36,253 nt of DNA from a virus. Each line of letters starts with the position of its first letter. Positions within the stretch are counted from its first letter, which is position 1. Positions 4,340-29,888 of the stretch are shown here, in pieces. The notes under the pieces are model-generated. The model saw only the letters and a list, made by a program, of their open reading frames with translations. It did no database searches and was not told the DNA's origin. The stretch covers positions 1 through 36,253 of IMG/VR virus record IMGVR_UViG_3300032291_003083; one strand, given 5' to 3'. Made by a program: the position numbers and the translations under genes.

Positions 4340-4914
4340 TGGGACGACCAAAAAAAAGCAATGTGGCGGAAGATTGTATTGATGATTCTGTTGATGAAAA
4401 ATCAAGCGAACTAAGCTTTAATGATAAGTCAGAACTAAAGAATGAGAGTCATGATGTTGCTAAATCTTCAATCATGGAGTCTTTAGACCTTCTTCAGATA
4501 CCTTACAATAAAGATGACTCGCTCGAAAAGCTAAGTTTAACGCTTAAAAGCGGAACAGCGTCTATGATAAAAGATGGCTCAACCAATAAAACCGATTCAG
4601 ACTTTGAAATAAAAAGATGGGGCGGCAATACAGAAATCACCGACTTAGATTTTTTAAGACGTTTACGTAAAATGGGTATCGACGTGCGATTTATTCGTAA
4701 AATCATAAACCCGCGCGACCCTTACGCCCCTGCTCGTGTCATTTTAACAGATGAGCATCGTAAATTTACCGACAGGCAAATACACGCAATAATCAGGACG
4801 CAAGGGCATGGCGTAATCAATTACGATTTTAAAAAAGTTTGTCGAGAAGTTGGAAATCAACCGCCAACTAAAATAAATCACTCTTGTGGAATGGATAGAC
4901 ACCTTATTAAATAA
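4339..4914 (+). CDS. hypothetical protein with AT-hook-like N-terminus
   Basis: 191 residues. It opens with MGRPKKS, a GRP core flanked by basic residues as in AT-hooks. Residues about 10-85 are low-complexity and rich in Ser, Asp, Glu and Lys, probably disordered. The C-terminal half is compact: FLRRLRKMGIDVRFIRKI, then an INPRDPYAPARVILTDEHRK segment and a helix RQIHAIIRTQGHG. The arrangement suggests a disordered tether carrying a small basic folded domain. The stop overlaps the portal start, so it is coupled to portal expression. No family recognised. Confidence 0.75.
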   Translation: MGRPKKSNVAEDCIDDSVDEKSSELSFNDKSELKNESHDVAKSSIMESLDLLQIPYNKDDSLEKLSLTLKSGTASMIKDGSTNKTDSDFEIKRWGGNTEITDLDFLRRLRKMGIDVRFIRKIINPRDPYAPARVILTDEHRKFTDRQIHAIIRTQGHGVINYDFKKVCREVGNQPPTKINHSCGMDRHLIK

Positions 4915-7121
4915 TGGACAAAGCTAAAGAGCAAGGACGCTCTAAAAAGGCTTACAGTAAAGCTTCAATTTCTTTTAACCCAGAGGTAAAAGAAATTGAA
5001 GAGATGGCAGACTCTTGGGCGTCCGATTTTGCATCAAACAATCTTCGCGGTCATGATGCAATTGATTTTGCAATTCATTTTAAGCAATGGGATAGTCAAG
5101 TTTCTTCTAACCGCAAAATAGATGACAAAGAATGCCTTACCATTAATTACCTGATATCCTTGCTTGATAAGCTAATTAGTGCTTACCTCAAATATGACTT
5201 TAATTTAGACCTCTCTCCAATAAGCGAGCAGTTTACGGACGAAGCAGAGCTAAACTCTGCCCGCATGTTAATGCGTCACTTTTTTGATGCGCAGTCTAAG
5301 GCAGCTTTGATGGCCTGGATTAAATGCGCTCAGTTTGGCTATGCTTTTGTCGAATACGGCATAACGTACGAGAATAATAAAACTCTCGACAAAATTCCTT
5401 CACTCACATTCTACGAAGACCCAACTATTGCATTTTGGGATAGAGCGGCCAAAAACCCAAACAAAGAAGATGGGCTTTATTGCGGCATAAAAATAAAATC
5501 ATCTTATGATGAGCTTGTAGACGCTTACCCAGACATTGACCCCAGAAAATTTGACTTAAAAGAAAATAATGAAATAATTCGGTGCTGGTTTAGAAAAAAA
5601 GAAGCAGTTGATTATGTAATGGTAGAAGGTGGCTCTTATAAGCGTTTAGATTGTTTATCTGATGATGACAAAGTGTATTATGAAAATTATGCAGATGCAA
5701 AAACAAAACGCAGTACAAAAGATTGTATTTATTATTCTCTGATTATCAACAAGCACAAATATATTGACTGTGTAAAAACACCATTTGAAGATTTACCGCT
5801 GCTCTATCACAACATGCAAACAAGATGGAGTAAGACGGGAGAAATAACCTATCCGTTTACATATCGTTTTGAAGACGCTCAAAAGTTTTTAAACCTAGGT
5901 GTAGCCCAACTTGGCACAATGCTCAAAAAGTCTTCTGCCACTAAGTTTTTGTTAACTCCTGCTCATTTATCAACAGATGAACAAATTGAAACAGCAAACG
6001 AAATTAGTACACGTGATGGGGCTATTTTGCTTGGTGAAAACAGAGACGGCGCAGGCTCAGGGCGCGATCCAATTGTCGTGCCAGCCCCAGATATACCTAT
6101 GTCCATGTTGGAATCTGTGAGGCTTGGTAAACTTCAAATTGAAGACCTAGGCGGTTCTTTTATAAATACGCAGCAAGGGGGCAGGGTAGTTGTATCTGGT
6201 AAAGCGATGGAAACTTTTTCTGAAAATACTTCACTAAGCGAAAATTCAGTTTATATGCTTTCTTCTCAATTGGAATTCTTGGAGACAATCTGTAAATTTA
6301 ACCAAGTTGTAATCCCTAAAATCATTACAGAAACACGTTTAATCCCGATTAAGCAGCAAGACGGTTCAACCATGCATATTGGTGTGAATAGAGAGCTTGA
6401 AAGCGGCAAGGTTTTAAACGATATGCGTTTTATCTCTAATCAATTCCTTTATGAGGTTTCAGTGGGACCTTCTGGCGAACAGCAAAAACGTATTACGCTA
6501 CAAAACTTAATGGCGTACTACTCTGCGCCTAGGACGCCAGATTTTGAAAAAACAAAAGACATCTTCTCTAAAAATCTTAATATCTCGAACGCTAAAGAAT
6601 TTGAGATGCGTTTATCTGCTGATATGGATCAAGACTTAATTGATTATTCAAACGGAAAAATAAGCCTGGAAACTTATTTAACCAAAAAATCTCAACAACA
6701 GCAGGCAATGATGCAAAGCCAAATGCAGATGGCTCAGACTCAGGCGCAGATGCAGGCTCAAAATGACCCCGAAGCTAAAGCTAATCAAGTACTCGCAGAC
6801 GCTGAAACCGCCAAGGCGGCAGTCGATGGTTATCGCGCAGAAACAGACCGATATTCTGCCATTGCAAAAGCACAAGAAGCGACATTAAAAGCTTCTGTTG
6901 ATTTAACAAAGGCGACAAATCAACAAATGCTAGGGCAAGCTCAACATGAATTAAATGTAACCAATGCGGTTATTGATTCAACAATTAAAGCCGCGGCTGA
7001 TTCTATTCAAAACCCAGTTGCTGCTGCAGCGCAAAGACAGCAAATAAATCAAATGGCTCAAAATGGGCAGAAAGAACAGCCGCAACCTGAACAGGCGCAA
7101 CAACAACCATTAAATCAATAA
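4914..7121 (+). CDS. portal protein, P22 gp1-like
   Basis: 735 residues, close to the 725 of P22 gp1. Visible features are an N-terminal helix with HFKQWDSQ, the clip/wing core with LTINYLISLLDKLISAY and ALMAWIKCAQFGYAFVEYG, and a TFYEDPTIAFWDRAA segment of the kind seen in this family. Residues about 565-735 are Gln- and Ala-rich helices corresponding to the long C-terminal barrel of P22-type portals. Twelve copies would form the vertex ring for packaging and ejection. It starts by overlapping the upstream stop codon (TAATGG). P22-like assignment rests on length, context and the helical barrel. Confidence 0.85.
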   Translation: MDKAKEQGRSKKAYSKASISFNPEVKEIEEMADSWASDFASNNLRGHDAIDFAIHFKQWDSQVSSNRKIDDKECLTINYLISLLDKLISAYLKYDFNLDLSPISEQFTDEAELNSARMLMRHFFDAQSKAALMAWIKCAQFGYAFVEYGITYENNKTLDKIPSLTFYEDPTIAFWDRAAKNPNKEDGLYCGIKIKSSYDELVDAYPDIDPRKFDLKENNEIIRCWFRKKEAVDYVMVEGGSYKRLDCLSDDDKVYYENYADAKTKRSTKDCIYYSLIINKHKYIDCVKTPFEDLPLLYHNMQTRWSKTGEITYPFTYRFEDAQKFLNLGVAQLGTMLKKSSATKFLLTPAHLSTDEQIETANEISTRDGAILLGENRDGAGSGRDPIVVPAPDIPMSMLESVRLGKLQIEDLGGSFINTQQGGRVVVSGKAMETFSENTSLSENSVYMLSSQLEFLETICKFNQVVIPKIITETRLIPIKQQDGSTMHIGVNRELESGKVLNDMRFISNQFLYEVSVGPSGEQQKRITLQNLMAYYSAPRTPDFEKTKDIFSKNLNISNAKEFEMRLSADMDQDLIDYSNGKISLETYLTKKSQQQQAMMQSQMQMAQTQAQMQAQNDPEAKANQVLADAETAKAAVDGYRAETDRYSAIAKAQEATLKASVDLTKATNQQMLGQAQHELNVTNAVIDSTIKAAADSIQNPVAAAAQRQQINQMAQNGQKEQPQPEQAQQQPLNQ

Positions 7122-8516: not shown

Positions 8517-9260
8517 ATGTATCAGCAAGATGAGCAACAAATGCCAGAAGAGCAAGCTAACGAACAAATGCAAGAGCAAGAACAAGTGCCAGGGCAAGAG
8601 AATGCGACGCTTGAAAATGAAGGCAGCGGCGAACACAAAAGCAAAAAACTTCATTCTGCTGAGGAAGTTTCAGCAATAGTGCAGAAAAGAGTTAACAAAG
8701 AAAGAAAAGACAAGGAAGCTTTAGCTGCTGAAAATGCCGCGCTCAAAGAACTCTCCTTGCAAAAAGACGACTTGCTAAAAAAGGCTCAAGCGAATCAAAT
8801 TAGCCCCGAAGATTTTCAACAAGCAATGCATTATGTTAACAAAACTGCTGAACAAAAAGCGGCAGAGCAATACAACATGATGACACAAAAGCAAAACAAT
8901 GAAGCATTGGGCGCAAAACTTGAAAGCGCATGCAAGGAAGACCCTGAATTTGCGCAGTTGATTCAAGAGGCCGAAAAGACTCCTGATGACCACCGTGTGT
9001 TTAATGCTTTAGCGCAGATGAATTATATCCCTAATATTGCAGCAGTGGCTAAGCAGCTTTTATCAGACCAGTCAGATTTAGATATTGCCAGAGCGGCATC
9101 ACCTTTTGAACTTAAAAAATATATTAAGGAAGTAAGCGATAAATTAGCCGTTAGAAAGCCAGGGCCTAATCAATATAATGTTGAGCCAGTTATCAAAGGC
9201 TCTAATCAAACGTATGGTTTTGACAATAAATCCTACTTAAAAGAAAAAGGACTTATTTAA
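8517..9260 (+). CDS. capsid scaffolding protein
   Basis: 247 residues from the ATG at 8517, which follows the strong AACAGGAGGAGATATT ribosome-binding site. The frame is open further upstream but overlaps the gp10-like gene. The protein is almost entirely helical: a Gln/Glu-rich start, a coiled coil at about 45-90 (EVSAIVQKRVNKERKDKEAL), a long acidic helical middle, and a basic C-terminal stretch with KSYLKEKGLI, where P22 gp8 has its coat-binding helix-turn-helix. Position immediately before coat supports the call. It would direct procapsid assembly and exit during packaging. Confidence 0.8.
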   Translation: MYQQDEQQMPEEQANEQMQEQEQVPGQENATLENEGSGEHKSKKLHSAEEVSAIVQKRVNKERKDKEALAAENAALKELSLQKDDLLKKAQANQISPEDFQQAMHYVNKTAEQKAAEQYNMMTQKQNNEALGAKLESACKEDPEFAQLIQEAEKTPDDHRVFNALAQMNYIPNIAAVAKQLLSDQSDLDIARAASPFELKKYIKEVSDKLAVRKPGPNQYNVEPVIKGSNQTYGFDNKSYLKEKGLI

Positions 9261-9264
9261 ATAC

Positions 9265-9293
9265 TTGACATTTACGCTAACTATTGAAATAAT
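9265..9293 (+). promoter_or_regulatory. internal strong promoter for the coat gene
   Basis: TTGACA (9265-9270), 17 bp, AATAAT (9288-9293): perfect -35, five-of-six -10. The start site would be near 9300, giving a leader of about 155 nt before the coat ATG. With the terminator at 10782 this makes coat a separately boosted single-gene transcript inside the virion operon. Confidence 0.65.
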
Positions 9294-9380
9294 GCTTTTG
9301 ACCCCAAAGTCCATAAACTTGAGTATCGGTTTTAAAGTTTCAAGAAAACTATAAATTCTAACAGCTTTCATCGGCTCGTC

Positions 9381-9450
9381 TCCTCGACGTTAAAAGGTAA
9401 ATGATGAAGTTTGCATTAATAGCAATTATTTACTTTTTTAACTTCGAGGA
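9381..9450 (+). promoter_or_regulatory. long hairpin masking the coat ribosome-binding site
   Basis: TCCTCGACGTTAAAA (9381-9395) pairs with 9436-9450 (TTTTAACTTCGAGGA) with 14 of 15 Watson-Crick pairs (one C-T mismatch at 9388/9443) and two further G-U pairs toward the loop. The distal arm contains the coat ribosome-binding site (CGAGGA, 9445-9450). The 36-base loop contains ATG ATG at 9401, which opens an 18-codon leader in frame with coat. Folding would hide the coat start; ribosomes on the leader would open it. Confidence 0.55.
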
Positions 9451-9454
9451 TATT

Positions 9455-10762
9455 ATGACAGTCACATTAAACCAATCAGTAGTAACCAATTTCGTAGCTC
9501 GCCAAATGGGTGAGTTTCACGAGAATGCTTTTTCAATCCTTCGTACAGCAAACCGCAAATACGAAGAAATGTTTAACGATTCGCAATCAAAAGGATTCGC
9601 TCCAGGTAGCACCGTTAATATCAAAATTCCAGGATACCCAGGGGTTTCAACAGGTCTTACAGTAACAACGCCAACAGCAATTAACGATGTGGTTATTCCT
9701 TTTGTTATTACTGAAAACGATATTTACAACGTAACCTACCAATGGGATTTATACCAATACAAATTAAATTTGGTTGGCGGTAAAGATGCATTAACGGGTG
9801 ACATGGAGCGTGCGTTAGTCGATAACTATGCATACCCAGCTCACCAGGCGATGGCAACAGCTCAAGAACAAGTAGCGGCTTATCGCTTGGAAACTTCTGC
9901 TTTTTATTGCCATATCAACAGACCTTCTGAACTATCAAGCTTGACTAGTTGGTCAACCATTCAGCAAATCAACAAGAAAATGACTCGCTATGAGTTTCAA
10001 TTTCAAGACCGATTCATGCTGATGAATCTTGATGATGCGGCCAGCGTTGCTAGCTCGCTTCAAAATATGTTCAATCAACAAATCAATGAAAAAATTACCA
10101 AGACTGCTTATGTTGGCGGTGAGAAAAACGGTACATTATTGGCAGGATTGAACTTATTCCAATCTAACCAAATTAATGTTCACACTTCTGGTGCTTTGTC
10201 AGATGCAGTTGAATACCCAGCTATTACAGTTGGCAGTGTTTCTTCTGATGGCATGGAGATTACATTATCAGTTGGCGGCACTTCATCGGCTCAACTTGTT
10301 AATGCTGGCGACCTGTTCGCAATCCCTAGTGTTTACTTGCTAAAACCGATTGAATTTTCTCCAACTAATGACACTTTAGTCGTTACAGCGCAAGAAGATG
10401 CTTTTGGTGACGGCGCAGGAAACGTGACAATTAAACTTCCTTATCCGCTAATGATTACAGGTATGAATGCAAATGTTGAATCATTACCTGCTCCTGGTGC
10501 ACCTGTTGAGGCTTTCCCAGCTACCTTTAACAACAACTATTGCTATGTTCCTTCTGGTCTTAGCATGGTGCCTATTCCAATGGGTGAAGTTTATGGTGCT
10601 GATAACTCTAAAACAATTGGTCGCGGTAGCCCAAGCATTCCAGTTAGTGTTTATGCACAAGGTTTTATCCTTGAGCTTTCAAACATTTTCCGTATTTCAC
10701 AAATGCTTGGTATCTGTGCGTTTGCGCCTTACGTAATGCGCGTTCCAACACTAATTGTTTAG
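9455..10762 (+). CDS. major coat protein, P22-like HK97 fold
   Basis: 435 residues from the ATG at 9455 (430 in P22 gp5). The frame is open from 9401 and would add the hydrophobic MMKFALIAIIYFFNFEDI, but CGAGGA sits just before 9455 and the longer form looks unlike a coat N-terminus. Features are an N-arm (NQSVVTNFVARQMGEFHENA), an E-loop-like segment GYPGVSTGLTVTTPTA, a helical spine with QAMATAQEQVAAYRLE, a beta-rich insertion around residues 230-330, and the C-terminal ELSNIFRISQMLGICAFAPY, which resembles the corresponding P22 segment GLCRIALWYG. Sequence similarity is low, so the fold is inferred from context and pattern. Own promoter and terminator flank it. Confidence 0.85.
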   Translation: MTVTLNQSVVTNFVARQMGEFHENAFSILRTANRKYEEMFNDSQSKGFAPGSTVNIKIPGYPGVSTGLTVTTPTAINDVVIPFVITENDIYNVTYQWDLYQYKLNLVGGKDALTGDMERALVDNYAYPAHQAMATAQEQVAAYRLETSAFYCHINRPSELSSLTSWSTIQQINKKMTRYEFQFQDRFMLMNLDDAASVASSLQNMFNQQINEKITKTAYVGGEKNGTLLAGLNLFQSNQINVHTSGALSDAVEYPAITVGSVSSDGMEITLSVGGTSSAQLVNAGDLFAIPSVYLLKPIEFSPTNDTLVVTAQEDAFGDGAGNVTIKLPYPLMITGMNANVESLPAPGAPVEAFPATFNNNYCYVPSGLSMVPIPMGEVYGADNSKTIGRGSPSIPVSVYAQGFILELSNIFRISQMLGICAFAPYVMRVPTLIV

Positions 10763-10781: not shown

Positions 10782-10807
10782 AAAAGGGGGGCTTGTCTCT
10801 CCTTTTT
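10782..10807 (+). terminator. terminator after the coat gene
   Basis: AAAAGGGGGG (10782-10791), loop CTTGT, CTCTCCTTTT (10797-10806): ten pairs including two G-U, with a T-rich 3' arm. There is no long separate U-run, so termination is likely partial and would let some late transcripts continue while capping coat mRNA. Confidence 0.6.
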
Positions 10808-11747: not shown

Positions 11748-12434
11748 ATGCTAGTTGATTCTTTGGTTTCGTCATGTATTTCAAATGCAGGCTTGCAAGA
11801 TAAGCAACTCGAGCCTGCAATTGACGGCGGTGTACAACAAGAAACCCTAGACGAATTAAATTTATTGTTTGATTCGTGGCGTTCTTATATACCGTATGCC
11901 TCAGTATTTAACTTTACAAATTACGAACAATTAAAAAACACGCGATTTGTTAGCGTTGACATGGTGTCGTTTGTTTTTCCTGGCAAAACTGTTCAACAGC
12001 CATTGCGTCCTGTCGACTTAACAAAATGGGTTGAATTAACCTCGATAATAAATTTATCGGGAATTCCTCAAATTTATTATTTTGACCCGCAATATCAAAC
12101 CATCTTGGTTTATCCCGTACCTGCTGTTCCCAATTATGCCTTTACTGTATGGGGCAGGCCCGCTATCGGCCCGTTAGCCCTTGGGCAAGAATTACCACCC
12201 CAAGTGCCTAATTTTATGATTGATGCCTTGCAATATGAAGGCGGTTTTAGGATGGCATCTAAGTATCGCGTTGAATGGAGCCCAGAGCTAGAAAAGCTTA
12301 GGGGGGAGAGTTACAACACGCTTAAATCACAACGCGTTATTGCGCTTTCGCCACGTATAAATACAGTATTCAAAGCAAGAAATTCTAGTGGGTCTTTTCC
12401 TTTTCTTTATTTTGCTTCTGGCGGGAGGGCTTAA
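11748..12434 (+). CDS. head-tail connector / tail accessory factor, P22 gp4-like
   Basis: 228 residues. The helical N-terminus with ETLDELNLLFDSWRSYIP is typical of gp4-family adaptors, as are the central strand pair IYYFDPQYQTILVYPVP and the following FTVWGRPAIGPLALGQELPP. The C-terminal helix has ALQYEGGFRMASKYRVEWSPE. Twelve copies would extend the portal and receive the gp10-like plug. P22 gp4 (166 residues) is also reported to have muralytic activity in virions, but I see no definite catalytic motif here. Ribosome-binding site AAAGGAAAAATA; the stop overlaps the next ATG. Confidence 0.75.
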   Translation: MLVDSLVSSCISNAGLQDKQLEPAIDGGVQQETLDELNLLFDSWRSYIPYASVFNFTNYEQLKNTRFVSVDMVSFVFPGKTVQQPLRPVDLTKWVELTSIINLSGIPQIYYFDPQYQTILVYPVPAVPNYAFTVWGRPAIGPLALGQELPPQVPNFMIDALQYEGGFRMASKYRVEWSPELEKLRGESYNTLKSQRVIALSPRINTVFKARNSSGSFPFLYFASGGRA

Positions 12435-26188: not shown

Positions 26189-26318
26189 TATTTTTTTCCT
26201 GTTTTACTATTTCTTGCTCAATCAAGTCACACTCTTTGCAACAATCAGACTCAGGCGTGTACTGATACCCTTCTCCACAGTTTTGACAATTTCCCGCTAA
26301 ATAATTATCGCTACTCAT
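26178..26318 (-). CDS. 46-residue zinc-ribbon micro-protein
   Basis: Leftward ATG 26318 to TAA 26178. The product has C-Q-N-C at 11-14 and C-C-K-E-C at 26-30, so two CxxC knuckles about 12 residues apart: a minimal treble-clef or zinc-ribbon fold, followed by a Gln/Glu helix. Its start overlaps the pentapeptide gene stop (8 bases) and its end overlaps the next gene, showing tight packing of a coupled operon. Confidence 0.65.
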
Positions 26319-26598
26319 TTATTAAAACTTCTTTTTTTGTATTGTTTAAATTAGCGCCGCTCAAATCCGCACCGCGCAAGTTCGCATAACGCAAATCTGC
26401 ATCATTCAAGTTAGCAAAGCTCAAATCCGCACCGATTAAGTTGGCACAACTTAAGTTAGCGCCGCTCAAATCCGCACCGAACAAATTTGCATTATGCAAG
26501 TCCGCACCGCTCAAATTGGCTTTAATTCCTTTTTTGCCCAACGATTCAATAAATTCTTTATGTTGAGCTAATATTTTTTTAAGTATTTCGGGATTCAT
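26311..26598 (-). CDS. pentapeptide-repeat protein
   Basis: 95 residues. After an N-terminal helix ([19 protein letters not shown]) come about twelve consecutive A(D/N)LXX pentapeptides, for example [20 protein letters not shown], ending [14 protein letters not shown]. The fold is a right-handed quadrilateral beta-helix of roughly three coils. Larger relatives (MfpA, Qnr) mimic DNA and bind gyrase; this one is shorter and less acidic, so gyrase binding is a possibility, not a call. No Shine-Dalgarno is visible before ATG 26598. It lies between recombination and accessory genes. Confidence 0.9.
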
Positions 26599-29672: not shown

Positions 29673-29888
29673 ATGAATAACATTACAAAAAAGAAAATAC
29701 TAAATCTTTTTGGCACGCAAGCAGAATTAGCTAAGCGAATGAAAGTATCTCCAAACTTAGTGGGAAACTGGTTTTGTGGATTTTGTGAGTGTCCTGCAAA
29801 ACACGCGATAACAATTGAGTATTTAACCCGCGGAGCCGTGATGGCTTGCGATATACGTCCAGACATTTTTAGACCTGGAGTGGTTTAA
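29673..29888 (+). CDS. Cro-like helix-turn-helix repressor
   Basis: 71 residues beginning MNNITKKKILNLFGTQAELA. An HTH of the Cro/YdaS type is visible: helix 2 TQAELAKRMK, turn, recognition helix SPNLVGNWFCGFCECPAKHA, then TIEYLTRGAVMACDIRPDIF as in many Cro-like proteins where R-P-D-x-F closes the domain. It would bind the promoter region just upstream. No Shine-Dalgarno; the promoter start site almost coincides with the ATG, so the mRNA may be leaderless, as lambda cI is from pRM. Confidence 0.85.
   Translation: MNNITKKKILNLFGTQAELAKRMKVSPNLVGNWFCGFCECPAKHAITIEYLTRGAVMACDIRPDIFRPGVV

Follow-up and report, generated by a model that had tools for sequence, protein, structure and literature searches.

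Tailed phages depend on making coat subunits by the hundred, with proper timing and in due proportion to the scaffold. Why, then, would the message for a major capsid protein hide its own Shine-Dalgarno sequence in a long hairpin, and how could such a message be translated? The question is raised by the coat gene of an uncultivated phage, IMG/VR virus record IMGVR_UViG_3300032291_003083, which was analysed over positions 1 to 36,253 (36,253 nt, hereafter the window).

A P22-like phage with few close relatives

From its gene content, the window reads as a P22-like podovirus: it encodes a small and a large terminase, a P22-type portal and a P22-type coat, together with a gene in the scaffold position that matched no family in searches of the window and owes its name to position alone. 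Only two close relatives, L001 and L002, were found in IMG/VR, with coat proteins 96% identical to that of the window, and a terminase search for closer ones returned, besides L001, only matches of 26-44% identity. Among named phages, the closest in which a coat relative could be detected is Rhodoferax phage P26218 (about 23% identity); its P22-type coat gene follows a scaffold-like gene, as in the window, but with about 30 nt between them and no long leader.

Several other features of the window were recorded. Two short predicted repressor-type transcriptional regulators (1126-1314 and 29673-29888) hint at a temperate or formerly temperate phage. A GroES-like co-chaperonin gene (2111-2422; phrog_3188, E 1e-6) lies between the small and large terminase genes. 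A pentapeptide-repeat-like ORF (26311-26598) matches several offset places in L006 (2013-2543), suggesting repeat expansion, and the stretch 195-572, with no clear gene, has short conserved pieces in L006 (3452-3927).

The coat gene as a separate unit

The first-pass annotation had described the coat gene as an isolated unit, with a TTGACA promoter upstream and a terminator downstream, and both signals are present (Table 1). The promoter has a TG before its second hexamer. No other site in the 36-kb window, on whichever strand, reaches 11 of 12 matches, and both hexamers of the promoter, TTGACA and AATAAT, are present also in L001 and L002. The terminator of L001 stands at the same place after the coat gene, with a 12-pair stem whose sequence is unrelated to that of the window, which is good evidence that termination after the coat gene is selected. 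A promoter and a terminator of its own thus support the idea of an isolated coat unit. The gap between the scaffold and coat genes is 194 nt in the window; it is at most about 85 nt in those distant relatives whose P22-type coat genes were readable, and none of the 72 distant genes of this type that were read has a comparable leader.

Table 1. Features of the coat locus (window coordinates unless another record is named)
Feature	Position	Strand	Remarks
Divergent L001/L002 block: scaffold gene plus coat leader as far as the stem loop	L001 601-1600 (about window 8619-9410)		
Sigma-70 type promoter, TTGACA-17-AATAAT	9265-9293	+	11/12 matches
Coat leader	9300-9454	+	about 155 nt if transcription starts near 9300 (inferred start)
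Upstream element	9333-9397	+	about 63-65 nt; overlaps 5' arm of long stem; single in window and L001, tandem in L002; four copies aligned
Small helix AGRA / UYCU	9343-9359	+	9343-9346 with 9356-9359; overlaps a GUUU/AAAC alternative; one pair A-U in 2 copies, G-C in 2
Small helix RGCY-6-GGCY	9363-9376	+	fully paired (100% of cells) across the 4 copies, with one compensatory change
Small hairpin CGUC-UCCUC-GACG	9377-9389	+	anti-Shine-Dalgarno-like loop; identical in all four copies
Long stem, 5' arm	9381-9406	+	25 pairs to 9423-9450 (predicted fold)
Long stem, 3' arm	9423-9450	+	includes coat Shine-Dalgarno GAGGA (9446-9450); predicted fold
Leader ORF MMKFALIAIIYFFNFEDI	9401-9454	+	18 codons, in frame with coat; own Shine-Dalgarno-like AAAAGG at 9392-9397
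Coat (major capsid) gene, P22 coat family	9455-10762	+	PF11651, E 1.1e-8; phrog_283 major head protein, E 6.5e-22
Intrinsic terminator 3' of coat	10782-10807	+	10-pair stem with T run

A long stem over the coat Shine-Dalgarno sequence

A recount confirmed the pairing from which the lock had originally been proposed: 9381-9395 (TCCTCGACGTTAAAA) and 9436-9450 (TTTTAACTTCGAGGA), the latter including the coat Shine-Dalgarno sequence, form 14 of 15 Watson-Crick pairs, the mismatch being C9388/T9443. Folding predicts that this helix is part of a longer stem, made of 7 pairs, one mismatch and 18 further pairs with single unpaired bases, which reaches 9406/9423 and is followed by an apical extension of 3 pairs; the fold of 9290-9480 is more stable than all 200 shuffles (z = -3.7). 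The start codons of the leader ORF had been placed free in the loop. This was wrong, since both of them (9401 and 9404), together with the AAAAGG motif, are paired inside the predicted stem.

Opening the coat start region would take 14.2 kcal/mol; when the leader was shuffled 200 times, the cost was 6.4 +/- 2.1 with a maximum of 13.4. Among 45 starts of the window the coat start ranks joint second, and only two others (25805 and 12434) cost as much or more, the latter overlapping the end of the preceding gene. Hairpins with 14 of 15 pairs and a loop of up to 60 occur only twice in the entire window (mean 0.33 and maximum 2 in 40 dinucleotide shuffles): such a hairpin is not very rare somewhere in 36 kb, but one placed exactly on a Shine-Dalgarno sequence is rare. 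The other hairpin of this kind (4962-5002) lies inside the beginning of the portal ORF, where it encodes SISFNPEVKEIEE; it is weaker in the relatives (-10.4 versus -18.8 kcal/mol) and may simply be coding sequence.

Conservation of the stem and of the leader frame

The window and L001 are identical from 9358 to 9450, while neighbouring 50-nt stretches show about 6 differences (roughly 12%). In L002, the outer 7 pairs and the inner helix of the stem are retained, and a U to C change at the equivalent of 9390, opposite A9441, breaks one pair; opening the coat start would cost 14.1 kcal/mol in L001 and 9.6 kcal/mol in L002, the lowest of the three. The pairing is thus kept in L001 and mostly kept in L002, in support of a hairpin that buries the coat Shine-Dalgarno sequence. 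Compensatory changes, which were also sought in the two arms, were not seen across the three phages, in an alignment with few changes in which the arms of the window and L001 are identical and L002 contributes one pair-breaking change.

The leader ORF, put forward at first as an 18-codon hydrophobic leader in frame with the coat gene, stands in part. It is present in the window and in L001, where E replaces D, but one inserted base in L002 shifts the frame to give MMKRCINSNYLLF followed by a stop, this TAA lying 13 nt before the coat start and just before the coat Shine-Dalgarno sequence. Both the frame and the hydrophobic character are lost there, so a hydrophobic in-frame leader does not hold as a conserved feature, and the extended, membrane-seeking coat that had been suggested is rejected as such. 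As the L002 frame is shifted by an insertion while the pairing of both arms is mostly retained, the structure appears to be kept better than the leader reading frame across these relatives.

A three-hairpin element upstream of the stem

The leader also contains an upstream element of three small predicted hairpins, the last of which shares bases with the 5' arm of the long stem, so that the two would be mutually exclusive. In L002 the element occurs as two adjacent copies (4814-4876 and 4877-4941) that are about 18% different in their first half. This duplication could be an assembly chimera; for a simple read-duplication artefact the copies are too divergent. Across the four copies, 97.9% of the cells in the small helices are paired and two pairs are changed on both sides. 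The covariation score of the element was reached by 30 of 500 shuffles, and the covariation is taken as suggestive only. The CGUC-UCCUC-GACG hairpin is invariant even in that L002 copy which lacks a neighbouring 3' arm, and the fold predicted with 9436-9450 kept free contains part of it.

Between L001 and L002, identity is about 99% over most of the other sequence compared, whereas one block, running from the scaffold gene into the loop of the leader stem, is strongly different; it seems that this block, scaffold gene and leader alike, was exchanged as a whole.

Searches for related RNA elements

The leader did not group with a riboswitch or another curated RNA family: it had no Rfam match at the gathering score, and the matches far below that score were at chance level, mostly to microRNA and snoRNA families. 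In viral contigs, pattern scans for the upstream element returned the same two phages only. A looser hairpin pattern gave 45 stretches in viral contigs, and of 12 others scored with a sequence model none matched. Genome contigs gave five pattern matches, none scored by the sequence model, and the two that were read are GC-rich and look like coding DNA. The pattern scan of plasmids gave no match, and the search of phage records gave short chance matches only.

Known types of control were considered as well. A CsrA site was rejected: GGA is found in the small-hairpin loop of L001 and of the second L002 copy but is absent in the window. An RNA thermometer was also set aside, as the stem would be too stable. 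Scanning for a T4-style internal promoter that would remove only the 5' arm revealed none of the sigma-70 type (the scan does not recognise phage-specific promoters); the stem contains a single sigma-70-like site (9429-9456, 9/12 matches), from which transcription would begin inside the coat gene. A search of the available literature on autoregulation by the P22 scaffold found nothing relevant.

How the coat message could be opened

Our preferred reading, which we hold tentatively at a probability of roughly 45%, is that the coat mRNA carries a translational lock in cis, in which a stem buries the Shine-Dalgarno sequence and is actively opened, likeliest by RNase III, with the upstream hairpins biasing whether the lock forms. 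The message transcribed from the strong promoter of the coat gene would start with the leader of about 155 nt, the 3' half of which would fold into the stem of about 25 pairs, so that the free message would be poorly translated. Cleavage by RNase III of this stem, two helical turns long, would trim the message to a short 5' end on which GAGGA is accessible, in the manner of adhE and lambda cIII, and ribosomes reading the short leader ORF may contribute to the opening. The three upstream hairpins, the last by using bases of the 5' arm, would delay or bias lock formation. The length of the stem fits RNase III cleavage, its 25 predicted pairs being above the 22-nt double-stranded minimum used for picking RNase III targets in PMC5371410. 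In the predicted ensembles, the locked state (-42.3 kcal/mol) is favoured by about 16 kcal/mol over the state with the 3' arm free (-26.1 kcal/mol), making an equilibrium two-state switch unlikely. Against a lock, it can be said that holding back the late protein in greatest demand is of no obvious use where RNase III acts all the time, and that the long stem is without compensatory changes in the three phages, L002 having both a broken pair and the lowest opening cost.

The paradox of a strong lock on the most abundant protein would disappear if the stem were a stabiliser of the mRNA 5' end or a processing site with little effect on translation, being readily opened by ribosomes or helicases. 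Stable leader stems can indeed protect phage and bacterial messages, e.g., those of E. coli ompA and the T7 gene 10 leader. We nevertheless find this explanation improbable, because a stabiliser need not cover the Shine-Dalgarno sequence itself, as the stem does here, at an opening cost well above that of nearly all other starts of the window. Somewhat better placed, while still doubtful, is the proposal that ribosomes starting at 9401 or 9404 unzip the stem, yielding a longer coat or freeing the coat start for others. AAAAGG stands 6 nt before the ATG at 9404 and both are present in all three phages; the stop codon of the L002 leader creates a layout suited to coupling; and the equally costly start at 12434 overlaps the gene before it at that gene's end, a setting in which coupling would open it. 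However, the Shine-Dalgarno sequence and start codons of the leader are themselves within the predicted stem, and L002 conserves neither frame nor peptide. Leader translation, which fits the L002 layout, is awkward in the window and L001, where it can yield extended coat only; every ribosome initiating at the leader would make it, which argues against the leader start as the normal route. Moreover, an open frame of 18 codons is unremarkable in such AT-rich DNA (roughly one in four by our estimate), and the hydrophobicity of AT-rich codons follows from composition.

The upstream element could, alternatively, be the sensor of a true switch, in which a phage protein (e.g., the scaffold) or a small molecule stabilises the CGUC-UCCUC-GACG hairpin and thereby frees the coat Shine-Dalgarno sequence, or the reverse. 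The tandem arrangement in L002, whose two copies have an unaltered shared hairpin, and the retention of the small helices with two compensatory pairs would agree with this, and a scaffold gene and leader that differ as one block between L001 and L002 are what would be expected if they worked together. We consider such a switch unlikely: the element is known from four copies only, with a covariation score that 30 of 500 shuffles reach, the locked state is far more stable, Rfam offers no match at the gathering score, and a block exchange has many other causes. There is a slim chance that the leader represents a phage regulatory RNA not described so far, a three-hairpin sensor that decides whether the capsid message is locked and is perhaps read by the co-travelling scaffold protein, balancing the synthesis of shell and scaffold.

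Comparison with known systems

Short leader ORFs ahead of a main start are known from integron attI1 ORF-11 and other cases of leader-ORF coupling. The leader described here differs in sitting within the predicted stem and in sharing, in two of the three phages, the frame of the coat gene.

Hairpins that bury the ribosome-binding site are already known from T4 late genes and homing endonuclease genes (soc, e, I-TevI, mobE; PMC2988022). As in T4, the hairpin predicted in the window covers the Shine-Dalgarno sequence of a phage gene that, from its function, should be late. In T4 (I-TevI and the like), messages from the late promoter lack the hairpin, whereas the only strong sigma-70 promoter of the window lies upstream of both arms. 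The window thus departs from T4 in its target, a major capsid gene whose own promoter precedes both arms, and in the element ahead of the stem, of which L002 has two copies. The preferred reading, a lock opened by RNase III, has its closest parallels in adhE and lambda cIII, where the ribosome-binding site is occluded until RNase III cuts (PMC5371410). The coat leader resembles these in its long predicted duplex over the ribosome-binding site (25 pairs, 9381-9406/9423-9450), within the length range of RNase III; it differs in the gene concerned and in the added three-hairpin element, and its cleavage is a proposal.

For an RNA lock on a major capsid gene, which it seems to be, the coat leader stem is unusually long. 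If this holds, a lock of this kind on a stand-alone capsid gene, combined with the upstream element that L002 has in two copies, would provide this phage with a compact control of timing, and if only RNase III opens the lock, the yield of capsids would depend on a host enzyme.
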